Source of the DNA: Fibrobacteria bacterium AD312
GTDB lineage: Bacteria > Fibrobacterota > Fibrobacteria > Fibrobacterales > Fibrobacteraceae
DNA length: 64,000 bases
Direction: 5' to 3'
NCBI GenBank assembly: GCA_001462345.1
Contig: LIUM01000041.1
Location: 1-64,000, forward strand
Below the pieces are notes generated by a model. It was given only the letters and a program-made list of their open reading frames with translations, ran no database searches and had not been told where the DNA came from. Positions within the stretch are counted from its first letter, which is position 1. Every line of letters starts with the position of its first letter. Both the position numbers and the translations under genes were made by a program. This document shows, piece after piece, positions 52,770 through 63,738 of the stretch.

Positions 52770-55700
52770 TTATACCGTTTGTGATTTAAAATGACCTTGA
52801 TTTATTAAAAAACCTCCCAAATCACCACCTTCTGGACCTAATTCGACATTCCAATCGGCTAAACGAATGATTTCTGGATGATGTTCTATAATAATCACGG
52901 TATGACCGCGGTCAGAAAGTCGCCTAAACATGTTCCAAAGGATTTGAATATCTTTCAAATGGAGCCCCGTGGTAGGTTCATCAAATAGGTAAATAGTCTC
53001 ACTTTTTTCTTTAACCGAAAGTTCTGCCGCTAATTTCATTCGTTGGGCTTCGCCTCCTGAAAGAGTGGTTACCGACTGCCCTAGTCTTAAATAAGAAAGA
53101 CCGACTTCAGAAAGTGGTTTAAGAAGCGAAACAATTTTATCTTGATCCTTAAAAAATTCACAAGCTTCATCAATACGAAGATCTAGGACATCTGCAATGT
53201 TTTTACCCTTAAAAAGAACGGATAGTGTCTCTTGATTATAACGCTTCCCTTCACAAGCCTCACAAACTTCCCAAACATCTGATAAAAAGTGCATTTCCAC
53301 AGAAATAGCGCCACGCCCTTCACAAACAGGACAACGGCCTCGCGCCACATTATAACTAAAGCGACCAAGATCAAAGCCCTTCATTTTAGACTGTTCCATT
53401 TTAGCAAAAAGCCGACGAATAGGATCTAAAGCCCCCGTATAACTTGCTGGAGTGGATCTCGGGGTTCCAGATAAAGGCGATTGATCAACGACAACGACAT
53501 CCACCAAGCTCTGGCGACGCCCTCTAGCACCAAATTGTTTTTTCAATTCAGGTAAAATACAATCCATCACTAACGTACTTTTGCCCGAACCAGAAACTCC
53601 TGAAACAACCGAAATCTTCCCTTTAGGAATACGAACATCTATGTTTTTTAGATTATTCTTGGAAAGGTGATTAAACTCATAAAAAGGAGTTTCGTCTGAA
53701 ACAACCTCTGGCGTGTTTTGATTATGAAGAGGCGTTTTTGAGGTAAGATATCGAACCGTTTCACTTCTTGGATAAAGAGTCAGTGCATTTTTCTGAGATA
53801 ATTTTTTAGGAGAACCTTCGGCAACAATTTCTCCTCCATATTCCCCAGCGCCAGGGCCCATATCAATAATGTGATCTGCTGCCCGCATCATTTCTAAATC
53901 ATGTTCTACAACAACTAACGTATTCCCTAAATCTCTTAGTTGATAAAGAGTGGAAAGAAGTTTTTGAGTGTCATTTTGGTGTAAGCCAACGGTAGGCTCA
54001 TCTAACACGTAAAGAACGCCCTCTAAACCACTTCCAATTTGACTCGACAAGCGAATCCGTTGCGCCTCGCCTCCTGATAAGGTATCCCCTGTTCTAAATA
54101 GGCCTAAGTAACCGAGCCCAACATTTTTAAGAAAGTCTAATCGGCCGAGAATTTCTTTTAATAACGGGTCTGCAATCTTAGCGTTATCTTGTGTAAAAAT
54201 GCGCTCCGCAAACCAATCTCTTGCCTTTGAAATACTCATCGAAGAGACTTCCATGATATTTTTTTCGGCGATGCGTACATTCAAATACTCTTTCTTTAGT
54301 CGCATGCCATGGCATTCTGGGCAAATCTTCTGCGAATCCTCTATGCCTAGCCCCAAACAACGAGGACAAGCGCCCCAATGGGTATTAAAGCTGAAAAATT
54401 TAGGATTAAGTTCTTGCTCAAAATACCAGTCGCAAGAATTACAACCAGGCAACAAGGAGAATAAATGCCGTTGATTCGACTCCCCTTCGAGAATCACTTT
54501 CCCTTGATTTTCTTTATAAGCGATTTCAATCGCTTCGACTAATCGTTTTTTATTTTTTTCATTGACGATCACGCGATCAATCTGGATATATTCTTTATTC
54601 CCTGAAGTCTTCTTCTTATAGCCTTTCTCAAGCATGGCCTCCAATTTATGAGTAGAATGATGATCACTCAATAAGACATGCACCATTTGATTCTTAAAAT
54701 GTTTAAGTGCAAAATGAGAGACTTCTGCAACACTAAAAGATTGAAGAGGCTTTCCACAATGAATACAATGAGGAATTCCTAATCTAGACCAAAAAATTCT
54801 AAAGTAATCATAAATTTCAGTGAGCGTCGCGACTGTACTTCTCGGGCTACGGCTCGAACTCCCTTGATCTATCGCAATCGCTGGAGCAAGGCCTGTGATA
54901 GAATCAATATGCCCGCGATCTAGTCGCCCTAAAAAGCGGCGGGCATAAGCGCTTAATGTTTCTACAAAACGGCGTTGGCCTTCTGCAAAAAGCGTATGAA
55001 AAGCAAGGCTCGATTTACCAGAACCCGAGACTCCTGTAATCACTGTAAGTTGGTGCCTTGGGATTGTCACATCAAAATTTTTCAAATTGTGTTTTCTAGC
55101 GCCATGGATTTGAATGTCTAAAGAAAATGAATCCTCAAAAACAGATTTAGAACTCTTTTTATTTTGAGCCCATGTTTCTCCTTTGAGAACTGGAGCTAGA
55201 AAGCGACCTGTCATCGATTTTTTATTCTTCGCTATTTCTTCTGGAGTACCCGTAGCTACTAAATACCCACCAGCGTCTCCGGCTTCTGGCCCTAAATCAA
55301 TAATCCAATCGGCGCATTTAATCACGTCTAGATTATGCTCGATCACCACAAGACTATTCCCTAAACTACGCAATCGATTTAAGCAATCTAGTAAGCGATG
55401 GATATCTTCAAAATGAAGCCCTGTGGTAGGTTCATCTAGTAGATACAATGTTTTTCCTGTACCTGGACGACGAAGCTCTGCACTTATTTTAATACGCTGT
55501 GCTTCGCCTCCAGAAAGAGTCGTAGAAGGTTGCCCTAATTTTAAGTAGCCAAGCCCAATTTCTTGTAATAGTTTTAATGGTTCTACAATCTTTGGAATCG
55601 ATTCAAAAAAGACACAAGCCTCGTCGACACTCATTTCTAAAACGTCATAGATATTCAGGCCTTTATAATAGACCTCAAGTGTAGCTTCATTAAAACGTTT

Positions 55701-57953
55701 CCCATCGCAAAATTCACAGGGGATTTCTACGCTTGGCATAATCTGCATATCGACCGTTTTAACGCCAGCCCCTTCACACATCTCACAACGCCCTCCAGGG
55801 ACATTAAAACTAAAACGGCTTTTAGTATACCCACGCACTTTACTTTCTGGTAAAGAAGCAAATAGATCTCGAATCGAATCAAAAATTTTCGTGTACGTGA
55901 CAGGATTGGAACGAGGTGTTCTTCCAATAGGTGTTTGGTCTATTTCTATGACTTTATCAATATGCTCTAAGCCTTCTATGCGGTCAAATAAACCAGGTTC
56001 TTCTTCGGCGTGGTGAAAATAGCGAGCGAGTTCACGGCGTAAAATATGATTCACTAGAGAGCTTTTTCCAGAGCCTGAAACCCCTGTCACTACAGTAAAC
56101 GCGCCATCTAATGGGATCGAAACGTCGATATTTTTTAAGTTGTTTTCTCGTGCACCGTAGATGGTTAAAAAAGGCGTTTTGGAATCGATTCGTTTTCTTT
56201 TTTGAGGAATATCAATCTTCTTTTGACCACTAAGATAAAGCCCCGTAAGTGATTTTTTATTCTTTTCTAATTCTTCTGCAGTGCCCACGGCAATCACTTC
56301 ACCGCCTTTGACACCAGCACCAGGCCCAATATCAATCACACAATCAGCCCGTCGCATAGTTTCTTCATCATGCTCCACGACAATTAAGCTGTTCCCTTGC
56401 GCGCGAAGGTGTTCTAAAATATCTAATAGCTTTTCATTGTCTCTTGGATGTAAGCCAATACTTGGTTCATCTAAAACGTATAAAACGCCTTGAAGCCCAG
56501 CCCCCACGGCTCCTGCTAAGCGAATGCGTTGGGCTTCCCCACCCGAAAGAGTGGCAGAACTTCTAGAAATATTAAGATAGCCAAGCCCTACGGCTTCTAG
56601 AAAAGAAAGCCTGTTTTTAATTTCTTTGAAAATTTCTTTTCCAATATGTTCTTCACGAGGAGTGTATTTTTGTTCCTTAAAAAACTTTACCGATTGATTC
56701 ACAGACCAGCTACTCAAATCTTGAATGCCATAACCATGAAAACGAACCGCATTGGCTACAGGATTTAAGCGCGACCCGTTACAAGTATGGCAAATGCTTT
56801 CATGCATGTATTTTTTAAAAAGATGAATATGCCATTTATCCCATAGTTCTTGCATTGTTGGCACCACACCTGAAACTTTTTTGGATGGGGGTCCGTAAAG
56901 AATGGCCTCTTGTTGGTTTATAGAAAGAGACTCCCATGGAGTATCAAGAGAGAACTTCATCTCTTTGGCAATTGCTTTTAAGTCTGACCAACCAAACGAA
57001 GAAAAAATGATATCACCATCTTTTTTTTGAGGCGCTAATGCCCCTTTCTTTATAGATAATGAAGGGTTTGGAACAATCAGTTCTTTTGTAAATTGATAAT
57101 TTCGCCCTAAGCCTTTACAGGAAGGGCATTGCCCTTGAACATCATTAAAAGAAAATAAACGAGGCTCGAGTTCAGGGATTGAAATACCACAACTCACACA
57201 AGCGAGTTCTGTGCCCTGAAGCAAATACTTGGATTCATTAAATAAAAAAGAAACGAGTTTTCCTTCTGTTAAACGGAGCGCGCCTTCAATGGCCTCACGA
57301 ACACGAGAAATATTCTTTTTAGATAAATCTAACCGATCAATAACGACTTCGATCGTATGCTTTTCATAACGCACTAATAAAGGAATATCTTCTAAACGAT
57401 AAATAACCCCATCGACTCGCGCACGAATAAAACCATTGGTTTTTAGATCTTCAATTTCTTTACGATACTCACCCTTACGTTCTTGGACAATCGGCGCCAT
57501 CACTAAAAGAGAACTGCCCTCATCTTCAGAATAAAGTTGGTCCACAATTTGATCTACAGATTGAGCCTCAATTTTCTTTCCACATTGAGGGCAATGAGGC
57601 ACGCCTAATCGCGCAAAAAGCAACCTATAATAATCCATGATTTCAACAACGGTACCGACAGTAGAACGAGGATTTCTGTTGACTGTTTTTTGATCGATAG
57701 ATATAGTAGGAGAAATACCGCGTACACTTTCGACCTCTGGGCGTTTCATGCTACCAATAAATTGACGCGCATATGCCGAAAGAGAATCTAAAAAGCGACG
57801 CTGCCCCTCTTGAAAAATAGTGTCAAAAGCAAGGCTCGATTTCCCTGAACCAGAAACACCTGTGATTACCACAATGGAGTCTCTTGGAATAGTCACATGA
57901 ACATGTTTCAGATTATGTTCATGGGCGTCGCGAACCACCACCGAACGAGTCAT
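52770..57953 (-). CDS. uvrA: UvrA, tandem-fused double-length excinuclease ATPase
   Basis: UvrA is the damage sensor of nucleotide-excision repair and normally works as a dimer of ~940-residue subunits. This protein has 1727 residues and contains two complete UvrA halves. Four P-loops are visible (GVSGSGKSSLAFD, GVSGSGKSSLVNH, GVSGSGKSSLAFH, GVSGSGKSTLVMD), four LSGGEAQR signatures, and zinc-finger Cys pairs in both halves (for example CHTCNGSRL, CEMCEGAG/CEFCDGKRF, CPECHGMRL, CPVCEGRG/CEACEGKRY). The second half begins at about residue 930 (IQIHGARKHNLKNFDVTIP). A covalent dimer follows. A promoter lies at 58041-58069. Confidence 0.95.
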   Translation of the reverse strand: MTRSVVVRDAHEHNLKHVHVTIPRDSIVVITGVSGSGKSSLAFDTIFQEGQRRFLDSLSAYARQFIGSMKRPEVESVRGISPTISIDQKTVNRNPRSTVGTVVEIMDYYRLLFARLGVPHCPQCGKKIEAQSVDQIVDQLYSEDEGSSLLVMAPIVQERKGEYRKEIEDLKTNGFIRARVDGVIYRLEDIPLLVRYEKHTIEVVIDRLDLSKKNISRVREAIEGALRLTEGKLVSFLFNESKYLLQGTELACVSCGISIPELEPRLFSFNDVQGQCPSCKGLGRNYQFTKELIVPNPSLSIKKGALAPQKKDGDIIFSSFGWSDLKAIAKEMKFSLDTPWESLSINQQEAILYGPPSKKVSGVVPTMQELWDKWHIHLFKKYMHESICHTCNGSRLNPVANAVRFHGYGIQDLSSWSVNQSVKFFKEQKYTPREEHIGKEIFKEIKNRLSFLEAVGLGYLNISRSSATLSGGEAQRIRLAGAVGAGLQGVLYVLDEPSIGLHPRDNEKLLDILEHLRAQGNSLIVVEHDEETMRRADCVIDIGPGAGVKGGEVIAVGTAEELEKNKKSLTGLYLSGQKKIDIPQKRKRIDSKTPFLTIYGARENNLKNIDVSIPLDGAFTVVTGVSGSGKSSLVNHILRRELARYFHHAEEEPGLFDRIEGLEHIDKVIEIDQTPIGRTPRSNPVTYTKIFDSIRDLFASLPESKVRGYTKSRFSFNVPGGRCEMCEGAGVKTVDMQIMPSVEIPCEFCDGKRFNEATLEVYYKGLNIYDVLEMSVDEACVFFESIPKIVEPLKLLQEIGLGYLKLGQPSTTLSGGEAQRIKISAELRRPGTGKTLYLLDEPTTGLHFEDIHRLLDCLNRLRSLGNSLVVIEHNLDVIKCADWIIDLGPEAGDAGGYLVATGTPEEIAKNKKSMTGRFLAPVLKGETWAQNKKSSKSVFEDSFSLDIQIHGARKHNLKNFDVTIPRHQLTVITGVSGSGKSSLAFHTLFAEGQRRFVETLSAYARRFLGRLDRGHIDSITGLAPAIAIDQGSSSRSPRSTVATLTEIYDYFRIFWSRLGIPHCIHCGKPLQSFSVAEVSHFALKHFKNQMVHVLLSDHHSTHKLEAMLEKGYKKKTSGNKEYIQIDRVIVNEKNKKRLVEAIEIAYKENQGKVILEGESNQRHLFSLLPGCNSCDWYFEQELNPKFFSFNTHWGACPRCLGLGIEDSQKICPECHGMRLKKEYLNVRIAEKNIMEVSSMSISKARDWFAERIFTQDNAKIADPLLKEILGRLDFLKNVGLGYLGLFRTGDTLSGGEAQRIRLSSQIGSGLEGVLYVLDEPTVGLHQNDTQKLLSTLYQLRDLGNTLVVVEHDLEMMRAADHIIDMGPGAGEYGGEIVAEGSPKKLSQKNALTLYPRSETVRYLTSKTPLHNQNTPEVVSDETPFYEFNHLSKNNLKNIDVRIPKGKISVVSGVSGSGKSTLVMDCILPELKKQFGARGRRQSLVDVVVVDQSPLSGTPRSTPASYTGALDPIRRLFAKMEQSKMKGFDLGRFSYNVARGRCPVCEGRGAISVEMHFLSDVWEVCEACEGKRYNQETLSVLFKGKNIADVLDLRIDEACEFFKDQDKIVSLLKPLSEVGLSYLRLGQSVTTLSGGEAQRMKLAAELSVKEKSETIYLFDEPTTGLHLKDIQILWNMFRRLSDRGHTVIIIEHHPEIIRLADWNVELGPEGGDLGGFLINQGHFKSQTV

Positions 57954-58207: not shown

Positions 58208-58435
58208 TTATAAGCTTCTAATTTCTTTTTCGGAAAGGCCAGAAATTGAAACAATATCAATCAAAGGAAGTCCTTTCAAAAGCATCGCTTTGGCCATTTC
58301 GCGCTTATTTTGCTCAATACCCTGCTCAATGCCTTGTTCTATGCCCTGCACAATACCTTGCTCAATACCTTGTTTTATTCCGTCGTCTTTTCCTTCGAGG
58401 TATGAGCTTTCTTTCTCGTATGCAATGTTCGTCAT
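58208..58435 (-). CDS. Stand-alone RpnS-like small protein (duplicated Rpn C-terminal domain)
   Basis: A 75-residue frame starting MTNIAYEKESSYLEGKDDG, which is almost the same as the last 71 residues of the Rpn nuclease next to it. It has six GI(K/E/V)Q units where the full gene has five, and substitutions at the end (SEKEIRSL against SEEEIKSL). Its Shine-Dalgarno sequence GAGG is 8 bp before the ATG. In E. coli, small RpnS proteins made from internal starts inhibit the full-length Rpn nuclease. Here the same segment exists as a separate downstream gene, so it may be a second inhibitor; it could also be a decaying duplicate. Confidence 0.65.
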   Translation of the reverse strand: MTNIAYEKESSYLEGKDDGIKQGIEQGIVQGIEQGIEQGIEQNKREMAKAMLLKGLPLIDIVSISGLSEKEIRSL

Positions 58436-58543: not shown

Positions 58544-58759
58544 TTACAAGCTTTTAATTTCTTCTTCAGAGAGGCCAGAAATTGAAACGATATCAATCAA
58601 AGGAAGTCCTTTCAAAAGCATCGCTTTGGCCATTTCGCGCTTATTTTGCTCAATGCCTTGTTCTATGCCCTGCACAATACCTTGCTCAATACCTTGTTTT
58701 ATTCCGTCGTCTTTCCCTTCGAGGTATGAGCTTTCTTTCTCGTATGCAATGTTTGTCAT
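58544..58759 (-). CDS. Intragenic RpnS (in-frame internal start within the Rpn gene)
   Basis: The in-frame ATG at 58759 has GTGAGGT upstream, with GAGG 8 bp from the ATG. The predicted product is 71 residues: MTNIAYEKESSYLEGKDDG, five GIxQ units, then the conserved C-terminal helix. This is the region produced separately as an inhibitory small protein in E. coli Rpn systems. The Shine-Dalgarno sequence and spacing are conserved in the duplicated copy at 58435. Translation is inferred, not shown. Confidence 0.6.
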   Translation of the reverse strand: MTNIAYEKESSYLEGKDDGIKQGIEQGIVQGIEQGIEQNKREMAKAMLLKGLPLIDIVSISGLSEEEIKSL

Positions 58760-59509
58760 TTCATCTACCTCACATAATAAGATTTCATCGGAGTACCCTT
58801 TTAAAGATACATCTTTCACAAAGTCTTTGTCAAGAAGACCTCTTAGACGGTCTTCCGAAATATCATCATCTTCAAGGACAGCCCGAAAAAGGCGAAGCAT
58901 ATCGGCTCTTGTAGACTTTTCTTGATTTTCAATCGGTGTGCGGTCTTCGATATTGAAAAACTTCTCGAGTTCTACAAAATACACGTCTAACTTGTCGTAA
59001 AAATGATTTTTGTTTCTAACGACCTGCGTTCGGTGAAAATACGTGTCTTTTTCGAGAATAAATTGGTCTTCCGTTAATATTGAAAGAACATAAATATGCG
59101 GAAGTTGATATTTTTGAGACTTCTTCACCGTTCTTGAGATGACTCTCGATGTATAATAGATAAGACGATCGGCAAATAGTTTGTCTGCATTTTGCTGAAC
59201 CTCAATCAAAACGGGTTCACCAGACTGAGTGATGCCATAAACATCAAAAATCGCCGTTTTATCGTTCAAGATCCCAGGATTCTCTTGCACGCCAAGCGTA
59301 AATTTCGTGATCGCTTTTGAACCCTCGAGCCCGAGCATTGCATTCAAAAATTTGATTGTGCGTTCTGGTTTAGCTTCGTTTGCCATTAGCAGTTTGAAAA
59401 TACCGTCGCTGAATGGGTAAACGTTCTTGAAAACTTTTCGGTATTCGGCAAGCCTAGCTGGGTTAGCCTTCACATCCTTAGCCATGGCTATGAACTGACT
59501 TCTATTCAT
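58544..59509 (-). CDS. Rpn-family recombination-promoting nuclease / PD-(D/E)XK transposase-like protein
   Basis: A 321-residue protein. The N-terminus (YPFSDGIFKLLMANEAKPERTIKFLNAML) and the nuclease core are typical of Rpn/PDDEXK_2: FDVYGITQSGEPVLIEVQQ supplies the catalytic Asp and the E-x-Q pair, followed by RLIYYTSRVISRTVKKSQKY. The C-terminus contains five GI(K/E/V)Q repeats and the helical end LLKGLPLIDIVSISGLSEEEIKSL. Rpn proteins are DNA endonucleases with toxic and phage-defence activity. The ATG follows AAGGGAGGAAAAG, a strong ribosome binding site. The gene has an internal start (listed separately), and its promoter carries several palindromes. Confidence 0.9.
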   Translation of the reverse strand: MNRSQFIAMAKDVKANPARLAEYRKVFKNVYPFSDGIFKLLMANEAKPERTIKFLNAMLGLEGSKAITKFTLGVQENPGILNDKTAIFDVYGITQSGEPVLIEVQQNADKLFADRLIYYTSRVISRTVKKSQKYQLPHIYVLSILTEDQFILEKDTYFHRTQVVRNKNHFYDKLDVYFVELEKFFNIEDRTPIENQEKSTRADMLRLFRAVLEDDDISEDRLRGLLDKDFVKDVSLKGYSDEILLCEVDEMTNIAYEKESSYLEGKDDGIKQGIEQGIVQGIEQGIEQNKREMAKAMLLKGLPLIDIVSISGLSEEEIKSL

Positions 59510-59554
59510 TCTTTTCCTCCCTTGCGAACAAGCTGAAATCGCAAGGCTTAATCG

Positions 59555-59671
59555 TTTAATATATTAAATGCACTTTTGTGCAGTAATTAATATAATAAGA
59601 CTTTTTGAAAAAGTCAAGTAATGAAGATTTTTCTATTTGAATATAAATTTTAAAAATGACAATTTTTGTCA
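59555..59671 (-). promoter_or_regulatory. Rpn promoter with four perfect palindromes
   Basis: Minus-strand promoter TTGACT (59617-59612), 17-bp spacer, TATATT (59594-59589). A perfect inverted repeat GACTTTTT-G-AAAAAGTC (59599-59615) fills most of the spacer and overlaps the -35. TGCAC-tttt-GTGCA (59569-59582) lies at the expected transcript start, directly abutting TTTAATATATTAAA (59555-59568). TGACAA-ttt-TTGTCA (59657-59671) is upstream. These are natural operator candidates. Confidence 0.65.
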
Positions 59672-59776: not shown

Positions 59777-60232
59777 TTAAAATACGTAACGCACGTCCAA
59801 AAGCAGGGAGCCACCAGTGCCACCTCCGAATACAGGAGCAAACGTCATGAAGTTTAAGCCCCAGTGATCGTTGAAATCCCAGTTTACCCCGAGTGCCAAT
59901 TCACCACTGGGATCTCCAAAAGAAACGACATTTAAAAGAGTAGCACCAATAATAAAATGAATGTGGTTTCCGCCTAAATAAAATAGAATTGGCATACGAA
60001 TGTACATAGAATGATACCCCTGCCACATTAAGCCCAAAGTCTGATAAATACCATTTTCTTGACTTAATCGAACTTTCATGCCAAGGCCGAAATCAAGAAG
60101 ACCTGCATGTAAGAAAAAAGAAGTTATAGGACGTTCTGAACAAGTCTGAATGGCGGGCGTTGACGCTGTTTCTGCAAAAGAAATAGTGGAGCATAAAAAT
60201 AATGCAATAAAAAATATTTTCAGTTTTTTCAT
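59777..60232 (-). CDS. Small outer-membrane beta-barrel-like protein, paralogue 1
   Basis: A 151-residue protein with a signal peptide (MKKLKIFFIALFLCSTISFAET) and amphipathic strands typical of small barrels (SFFLHAGLLDFGLGMKVRLS, YQTLGLMWQGYHSMYIRMP, FYLGGNHIHFIIGATLLN, LALGVNWDFNDHWGLNFM) ending in the aromatic residue of LLLDVRYVF, as outer-membrane proteins do. It is closely related to the protein at 63256-63738, and the leader DNA is conserved too. The promoter is TTGACA (60318-60313), 18-bp spacer, TATATT (60294-60289). Confidence 0.75.
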   Translation of the reverse strand: MKKLKIFFIALFLCSTISFAETASTPAIQTCSERPITSFFLHAGLLDFGLGMKVRLSQENGIYQTLGLMWQGYHSMYIRMPILFYLGGNHIHFIIGATLLNVVSFGDPSGELALGVNWDFNDHWGLNFMTFAPVFGGGTGGSLLLDVRYVF

Positions 60233-63255: not shown

Positions 63256-63738
63256 TTAAAATACGTAACGCACGTCTAAGAGCAATGAAGCCCCGTTGCT
63301 AGAAGGAAAGCTCACGGGAGTGAACATCATGAGATTTAGACCCCAATGCTTATTGAAATCCCAGTTGATGCCAAGCCCAGCTTCACCATTGGTGTCTCCA
63401 CTTGAAACGGCATTTAACAGGGTAGCTCCTGCAATAAAATGGATGTGATTTCCACCAAAATGAAACAGGAGTGGGATACGAATGTATTGAATATGAAACG
63501 CCTGCCACATGAGTCCCAAAGTGGCATAGACGCCATTTTCTTTACTTAAACGGACTTTCATACCAAGACCCAGGTCAATAAAACCAGCATGTAAGAAAAA
63601 GGAAGTTCTTGATTCTTCTTCGGAATTCTGAGTAGTTACCGTTGAATTATGTGAAGAGGCCATTACATCCCCTGTGTCTGCAAAACAGGTGACGGAACAA
63701 AGGAATAAAGCGATTAAAAATATTTTCAGTTTTTTCAT
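63256..63738 (-). CDS. Small outer-membrane beta-barrel-like protein, paralogue 2
   Basis: A 160-residue paralogue of the protein at 59777-60232. The signal peptide (MKKLKIFLIALFLCSVTCFADT) and the barrel part are conserved (SFFLHAGFIDLGLGMKVRLS, GLMWQAFHIQYIRIP, GGNHIHFIAGATLLNAVS, GINWDFNKHWGLNLMMF, LLLDVRYVF), with a longer variable insert after the signal. Its leader is nearly identical to that of paralogue 1. The local duplication includes the promoter region, so both copies are likely expressed in the same way. Confidence 0.75.
   Translation of the reverse strand: MKKLKIFLIALFLCSVTCFADTGDVMASSHNSTVTTQNSEEESRTSFFLHAGFIDLGLGMKVRLSKENGVYATLGLMWQAFHIQYIRIPLLFHFGGNHIHFIAGATLLNAVSSGDTNGEAGLGINWDFNKHWGLNLMMFTPVSFPSSNGASLLLDVRYVF

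Follow-up and report, generated by a model that had tools for sequence, protein, structure and literature searches.

A probable LexA operator and a conserved leader hairpin before rpn suggest a portable defence module in Fibrobacteraceae

The 64,000 nucleotides (nt) of contig LIUM01000041.1 studied here, called the window throughout, belong to the genome of Fibrobacteria bacterium AD312 (assembly of 2.83 Mb in 50 contigs) and carry on the minus strand an rpn gene for a nuclease-family protein, preceded by a promoter region with four perfect palindromes. One of these palindromes very probably represents a LexA (SOS) operator, and the leader between promoter and gene contains a hairpin which is conserved in front of many unrelated genes. 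Judging from sequence comparison, we consider it probable that rpn is under SOS control by LexA, that its leader hairpin is read by a trans-acting factor, and that both belong to a portable defence module of the Fibrobacteraceae. The features concerned are the following:

58544-59509, minus strand: rpn gene, 321 amino acids, PD-(D/E)XK nuclease family (PF12784, TIGR01784)
59516-59523, minus strand: ribosome-binding site AAGGGAGG, its 5' half within the hairpin stem, from sequence and alignment
59520-59546, minus strand: leader hairpin with an 8-base-pair (bp) stem (59539-59546 with 59520-59527) and the loop UUUCAGCUUGU (59528-59538)
59555-59568, unstranded: palindrome TTTAATATATTAAA, 7-bp arms, no loop, judged a chance product
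59569-59582: palindrome TGCACTTTTGTGCA, 5-bp arms, 4-nt loop, the same as the LexA-type box
59569-59582, minus strand: putative LexA-type operator TGCACAAAAGTGCA, located where transcription is predicted to start, from comparison with the genome, its lexA and recA and the recA of relatives
59589-59594, minus strand: -10 hexamer TATATT of the predicted rpn promoter, from a consensus scan and the geometry in related leaders
59599-59615, unstranded: palindrome GACTTTTTGAAAAAGTC, 8-bp arms, 1-nt loop, judged a chance product
59612-59617, minus strand: -35 hexamer TTGACT of the predicted rpn promoter, from a consensus scan with 10 of 12 matches, 17 nt from TATATT
59657-59671, unstranded: palindrome TGACAATTTTTGTCA, 6-bp arms, 3-nt loop, judged a chance product

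All four palindromes which the sequence-only reading had reported for this region could be located. The one at 59599-59615 lies mostly in the spacer between the -35 and -10 hexamers, where it had been placed, but it also overlaps four bases of the -35 hexamer. Their density, which had been called unusual for the window, is the highest found there by summed arm length: no other 118-nt piece (step 20 nt, 64 kb) reached 26, the best value being 25 at the same place. It is only mildly unusual when compared with 3,000 dinucleotide shuffles of this region, whose GC content is 17.8%: the number of palindromes was equalled in 4.9% of them and the summed arm length in 0.7%, and even these P values are flattering because the region was picked after being seen. 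When the LexA-type box is cut out, the three remaining palindromes give a P of 0.27 in number and of 0.0375 in summed arm length, and a palindrome of the TGACAATTTTTGTCA kind arises in 49% of the region shuffles. A spacer palindrome with arms of at least 7 bp occurs in the window alone among 74 module promoters scanned and is absent from the other 73, and the window is likewise the only one among 91 leaders with TGACA-N3-5-TGTCA upstream. The palindrome TTTAATATATTAAA is not preserved in leaders L150 and L155, compared by eye. Conservation of all four palindromes was not found upstream of 22 homologues, four of which have TGTCATATTCTGACA in common instead, and a direct search with the rpn promoter DNA in two other genomes of the genus gave no match. 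Conservation in relatives, on which the sequence-only reading had made its claim depend, is therefore seen for the box at 59569-59582, which is kept in position before some Rpn genes, and not for the other three palindromes. These three look like chance products of AT-rich DNA without a detectable role. To see nothing but chance in all four, in a promoter so rich in AT that three of them are often expected, is in our opinion very improbable: this explanation holds for the three unconserved palindromes, but it leaves the box and its coupled, covarying hairpin unexplained and is contradicted for both. The palindrome at 59569-59582 was also listed as terminator-like by a scan; this candidate was rejected, as the region has two such sites against 3.0 in shuffles.

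The LexA-type box lies 6 nt past the -10 hexamer of rpn and overlaps the predicted start point. We take the LexA box of Fibrobacter succinogenes to be TGCNCN4GTGCA, every fixed position of which is fitted by the window box; because this consensus was not found in the literature searched, the box was tested against the SOS genes of the genome itself. The genome encodes a LexA (C2:100080-100697; TIGR00498, 224.6 bits against a cut-off of 110.95), and boxes with one mismatch lie in its own lexA promoter (TGCACAATAATGCA, between -35 TTGACA and -10 TATATT) and in its own recA promoter (TGCTCACAAGTGCA, the protein being assigned by TIGR02012), these two promoters accounting for one each of the 16 one-mismatch sites examined out of 17. 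The exact form TGCAC-N4-GTGCA occurs a single time in the 2.83-Mb genome, before rpn, and no LexA-type box was found elsewhere in the window. The exact box stands in the recA promoters of four relatives (G005, G010, G014 and G016; recA was identified by TIGR02012 in three and by eye in G016), and it also precedes a gene read by eye as uvrA in G012. The recA operator of G005 equals TGCACTTTTGTGCA letter for letter, with 21 consecutive bases (TGCACTTTTGTGCAGTAATTA) identical to the window, and the boxes in the relatives' lexA promoters range from TGCCCAATTGTGCA to TGAACATTTGTTCA. A LexA has been characterised in Fibrobacter succinogenes, according to a passage of PMC3091678. All this makes the palindrome very probably an operator to which LexA would bind. 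On the plus strand, 59569-59597 resembles the recA promoter of relatives, with the box, GTAATTA and TATAAT in equal spacing; it is directed away from rpn and its leader with no gene near, and is perhaps a relic of the box's origin.

The stretches upstream of Rpn homologues were collected (111, of which 99 are distinct), and two of them, in G041 and G065, have the exact box at the same position. The distance from box to ATG is 74 nt and 73 nt there and 73 nt here, the homologues being 54-55% identical. A third stretch has a box with one mismatch, but far upstream, and several further Rpn homologues have box variants directly after the -10 (by eye). The suggestion of tight repression made in the sequence-only reading is therefore backed in one respect, through a single palindrome which is a LexA-type box at the predicted start and is kept in place before some Rpn genes, while the other three have no detectable part in it. 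The autoregulation proposed at the same time, whether through Rpn or through its C-terminal protein, finds no support. It would require that Rpn or the small protein RpnS binds the palindromes, and the small Rpn proteins are indeed known to dimerise and to counteract the large protein (PMC10327210, in the parts available). However, the box is common to recA, lexA and non-Rpn genes and the other palindromes are unconserved, so that we regard autoregulation as the least probable of all the explanations considered here. A different Rpn subgroup (L020, L021, L026, L028, L030, L031, L057, L144) has another conserved, G+C-rich leader, approximately CCGCGACACGGGCGCGTTCCCGC, adjoining the start codon.

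RNA structure in the leader had also been suggested, and a conserved structure is supported, although it is a hairpin at 59520-59546 that was not among the elements listed before. In the window it reads CCTTGCGA-TTTCAGCTTGT-TCGCAAGG from 59546 to 59520, followed by GAGG; a transcript beginning near 59582 would include it. The loop is constant (UUUnnGCnUGU), with GC-n-TGT in every aligned row printed. In an alignment of 14 leaders six of the eight stem pairs change on both sides, and the covariation score is 0.526, whereas shuffles give 0.177 and slid controls do not exceed 0.228. A larger alignment (63 matches, 60 distinct rows from 60 sources including the window), which is biased towards the covariance model R1 built on Rpn leaders because it was fitted to it, has 92.2% paired cells and two-sided change in all eight pairs, with a score of 0.434 against 0.154 in shuffles, none of 500 being as high. 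Out of 91 leaders, L250 and L289 were dropped (short upstream or N) and the rest merged at 75% identity, leaving 58 distinct ones. Over these the loop lies 6-11 nt from the Shine-Dalgarno sequence in every case (58/58). The 76-nt leader of the window folds with a z of -2.67. The predicted unpaired probability has a median of 0.87 in the loop, and the stem is predicted to be closed. Neither the window leader (the best chance match has 17.2 bits, the gathering threshold being 60) nor six related loci match any family of Rfam 15. An exposed, invariant loop on a covarying stem suggests a common trans-acting factor, either a protein or a small RNA, which would control translation by binding to the loop.

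Model R1 finds in this genome one match, at rpn (53.2 bits, E = 7.4e-11). The hairpin is present in 73 of 101 genomes of the family with up to 12 copies per genome, clustered in several of them, and no copy was found in G001 or G002. Of 167 Fibrobacterota genomes examined across the phylum, 81 have it; these belong to a single family and to four of 40 genera. The 90 hairpin loci were fetched from the top of the match list by score and are not a random sample. Behind the hairpin, 84 first frames have at least 30 residues and, named after cluster representatives, comprise 19 Rpn-type proteins, 19 of a 185-residue family, 8 of a 107-residue family, 7 short frames of 31-38 residues, 7 RelB, 6 RhuM, 5 AbiEi-type, 4 ORF6N, 4 DUF1016 and 2 DUF4160 proteins as well as three singletons, including one AbiEi_1 protein. 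Six more first frames are shorter than 30 residues, one being followed by a gene for a RelE/ParE-type toxin (TIGR02683). PADLOC assigns the RhuM and ORF6N representatives to the candidate systems PDC-S05/S23, DUF1016 to PDC-S02 and AbiEi to AbiE. It has no match for the RelB and 185-residue representatives, and matches the window Rpn only weakly, in its repeat tail. Neither the 185-residue (19 loci) nor the 107-residue proteins (8 loci) have a Pfam or NCBIfam match, and the same is true of a small toxin-like gene behind a leader with a short frame. The 31-38-residue frame, conserved before the next gene in seven hairpin leaders (L223, L227, L238, L252, L260, L261, L276), is possibly a leader peptide.

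Leaders up to 92% identical precede unrelated genes (L287 and L293), which suggests that leader and gene get exchanged. This identity, together with the clustering of copies, would also be expected if the hairpin acted as DNA, that is as a recombination or capture site which moves defence genes cassette-like behind a ready-made SOS promoter, and not as an RNA regulator. However, in the leaders fetched the hairpin stands immediately before the ribosome-binding site at the distance given above, and one common exact form of it has no match (0) in viral contigs; we therefore hold such a DNA site to be improbable.

Promoter, box and hairpin are coupled. The relaxed box TGNNC-N4-GNNYA occurs within 70 nt upstream in 48 of the 58 distinct hairpin leaders, compared with a mean of 1.15 and a maximum of 4 in 200 shuffles, 2/58 at 121-200 nt upstream and 0/58 in coding DNA, and a TTGAC-17-TATATT-like promoter precedes 47 of 49 boxes by 2-11 nt. 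Searching in the other direction, with promoter plus box and no hairpin, gave 124 places in 53 of the 101 genomes and none with the reversed control; in this genome rpn is the single match. Thirty of these loci were fetched, one per genome, and in 22 of them the hairpin follows immediately (in 20 at E <= 1e-5). As far as sequence goes, the promoter, the operator and the hairpin make up a single module, of which this genome has one copy. A second operator-like palindrome, TGTCA-N4-6-TGACA, lies over the -35 in leaders of Rpn and other module genes (L015, L016, L018, L019; L270; L266, L272, L298), mostly where the LexA-type box is absent. It is found around the -35 in 5 of the 58 leaders, against 0.005 in shuffles.

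Several observations weigh against SOS control of rpn and against a simple role of the hairpin. No box at all is seen before the majority of the closest homologues of Rpn, those with 60-70% identity, and this speaks against a general SOS control of Rpn. Boxes with one mismatch are not enriched in the genome (17 sites, 18 for the reversed control), imperfect boxes (TGCACAAGTGAGTA) are frequent in the leaders of Fibrobacter, and most of the 30 fetched loci are followed by genes that read as defence-like and not as core repair genes. The ribosome-binding site is not clearly hidden either, as the predicted unpaired probability of GGAG has a median of 0.46 over the 58 leaders and is 0.74 in the window. 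The predicted open loop, closed stem and half-hidden ribosome site fit a hairpin to which a trans factor docks better than they fit a plain lock. A repressor other than LexA, with a similar operator geometry, may instead be at work. In its sharpest form this would mean that the box serves as operator for a dedicated non-LexA repressor of the toxin-antitoxin and defence module, its likeness to lexA and recA boxes being coincidental or ancestral. Many Fibrobacter boxes deviate from TGCNCN4GNGCA and the genes behind boxes are mostly defence-like, as such a repressor would have it, and the leaders with TGTCA-N4-6-TGACA instead of or in addition to the box indicate that several repressors may use the leader. 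However, the window box is exactly the recA operator of a relative and one mismatch away from the lexA and recA boxes of its own genome, and the lexA boxes of relatives span the same range as the deviating ones. A dedicated repressor is therefore the strongest competitor, although we think it rather unlikely.

The preferred explanation, SOS control by LexA with a leader read in trans, would work as follows. A sigma-70-type promoter would drive rpn, and a LexA operator covering its start point would keep the nuclease silent until the SOS response is set off by damage to the DNA or by an attacking phage. The short transcript leader would then carry the conserved hairpin, touching the ribosome-binding site, to the factor that may recognise its loop. 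The Fibrobacteraceae seem to place this module before many toxin-antitoxin and defence genes, and the copy in this genome was perhaps gained together with rpn. It could go further than this, with about even chances on either side: a new cis-acting RNA family with the loop UUUnnGCnUGU and a LexA operator may together make up a portable two-lock switch on unrelated toxin-antitoxin and phage-defence genes, so that all of these genes, as an SOS-defence regulon, could be released or blocked after damage by a single loop-reading trans factor.

The remaining features of the locus concern the Rpn protein, its repeat tail and the neighbouring genes:

58208-58435, minus strand: 3' end of rpn copied in tandem as a detached frame, 75 amino acids, one four-residue repeat longer
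58544-58759, minus strand: candidate internally started RpnS with four-residue repeats, ATG at residue 251 after GAGGTAG, by analogy with PMC10327210

The assignment of Rpn is based on PF12784 (E = 8.2e-29, 101.4 bits, cut-off 27.4) and TIGR01784 (72.6 bits, cut-off 52.1). It contains FDVYGITQSGEPVLIEVQ, a candidate for the catalytic D...ExQ residues, which resembles the residues D63, E82 and Q84 given for RpnA in passages of PMC5350276. Among named records its nearest relatives are from Fibrobacter, at 22 of 23 loci and with 58-70% identity, the remaining locus being a tail match from Bacilli; of two other genomes of the genus one has no Rpn match and one a distant homologue (34%). The detached frame starts with the same internal ATG as the candidate RpnS and differs by one repeat of 12 nt. 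In E. coli an altered repeat number abolishes neutralisation, as stated in the part of PMC10327210 available, and by analogy the detached longer tail might act as a decoy or as an antitoxin that does not match. More copies of the repeat tail lie near the ends of contigs C13, C36, C40 and C44 (L003, L007, L008, L010, L011), as if the repeats broke the assembly. Downstream of rpn lies a double-length UvrA of 1,727 amino acids (52770-57953, minus strand), and two related small exported-looking proteins starting with MKKLKIF flank the region (59777-60232 and 63256-63738, both minus), the first without a Pfam match.

Two known systems resemble this arrangement. In SymE/SymR of E. coli a toxic protein is held at two levels, by LexA at the promoter and by control of translation at the RNA level (PMC1891008, in the parts available), an arrangement which we propose here as well. 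In symE a cis-encoded antisense RNA provides the second level, whereas the element here is a conserved hairpin common to many unrelated genes. The Rpn (YhgA-like) nucleases with the intragenic antitoxin RpnS, as far as described in the portions available of PMC10327210 and PMC5350276, belong to the same family and share the C-terminal four-residue repeats and the internal start, which is a candidate here. According to the same portions of these papers, DNA damage and SOS induction follow when Rpn is overexpressed in E. coli. Their passages on promoter, SOS and DNA damage do not describe LexA control of rpn, and the word LexA is absent from both main texts; unlike in these reports, rpn itself seems to be an SOS target here. 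As in the cis-regulatory leaders of Rfam, a covarying hairpin lies at the ribosome-binding site, but no Rfam 15 family matches it. The known targets of LexA in F. succinogenes are SOS genes; a structured leader followed by toxin and defence genes is new in comparison. A literature search, with most subscription journals outside it, found no paper on a Fibrobacter SOS or toxin leader, on this module or on LexA control of Rpn. SOS-controlled toxin or defence genes with a second control at the RNA level are thus known, and an undescribed RNA element common to many families is new.

So far SOS-controlled toxin and defence genes have been known singly and mostly from E. coli, whereas here one module stands before many unrelated defence genes. 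Rpn might even be part of a feedback, as its overexpression induces SOS in E. coli and SOS would here in turn induce Rpn. The question of which factor reads the constant loop is testable, and model R1 can serve as a search tool for uncharacterised defence genes in the little-studied Fibrobacteraceae. For this family, which matters for fibre digestion in ruminants, the module predicts a defence regulon that would be switched on by DNA damage.
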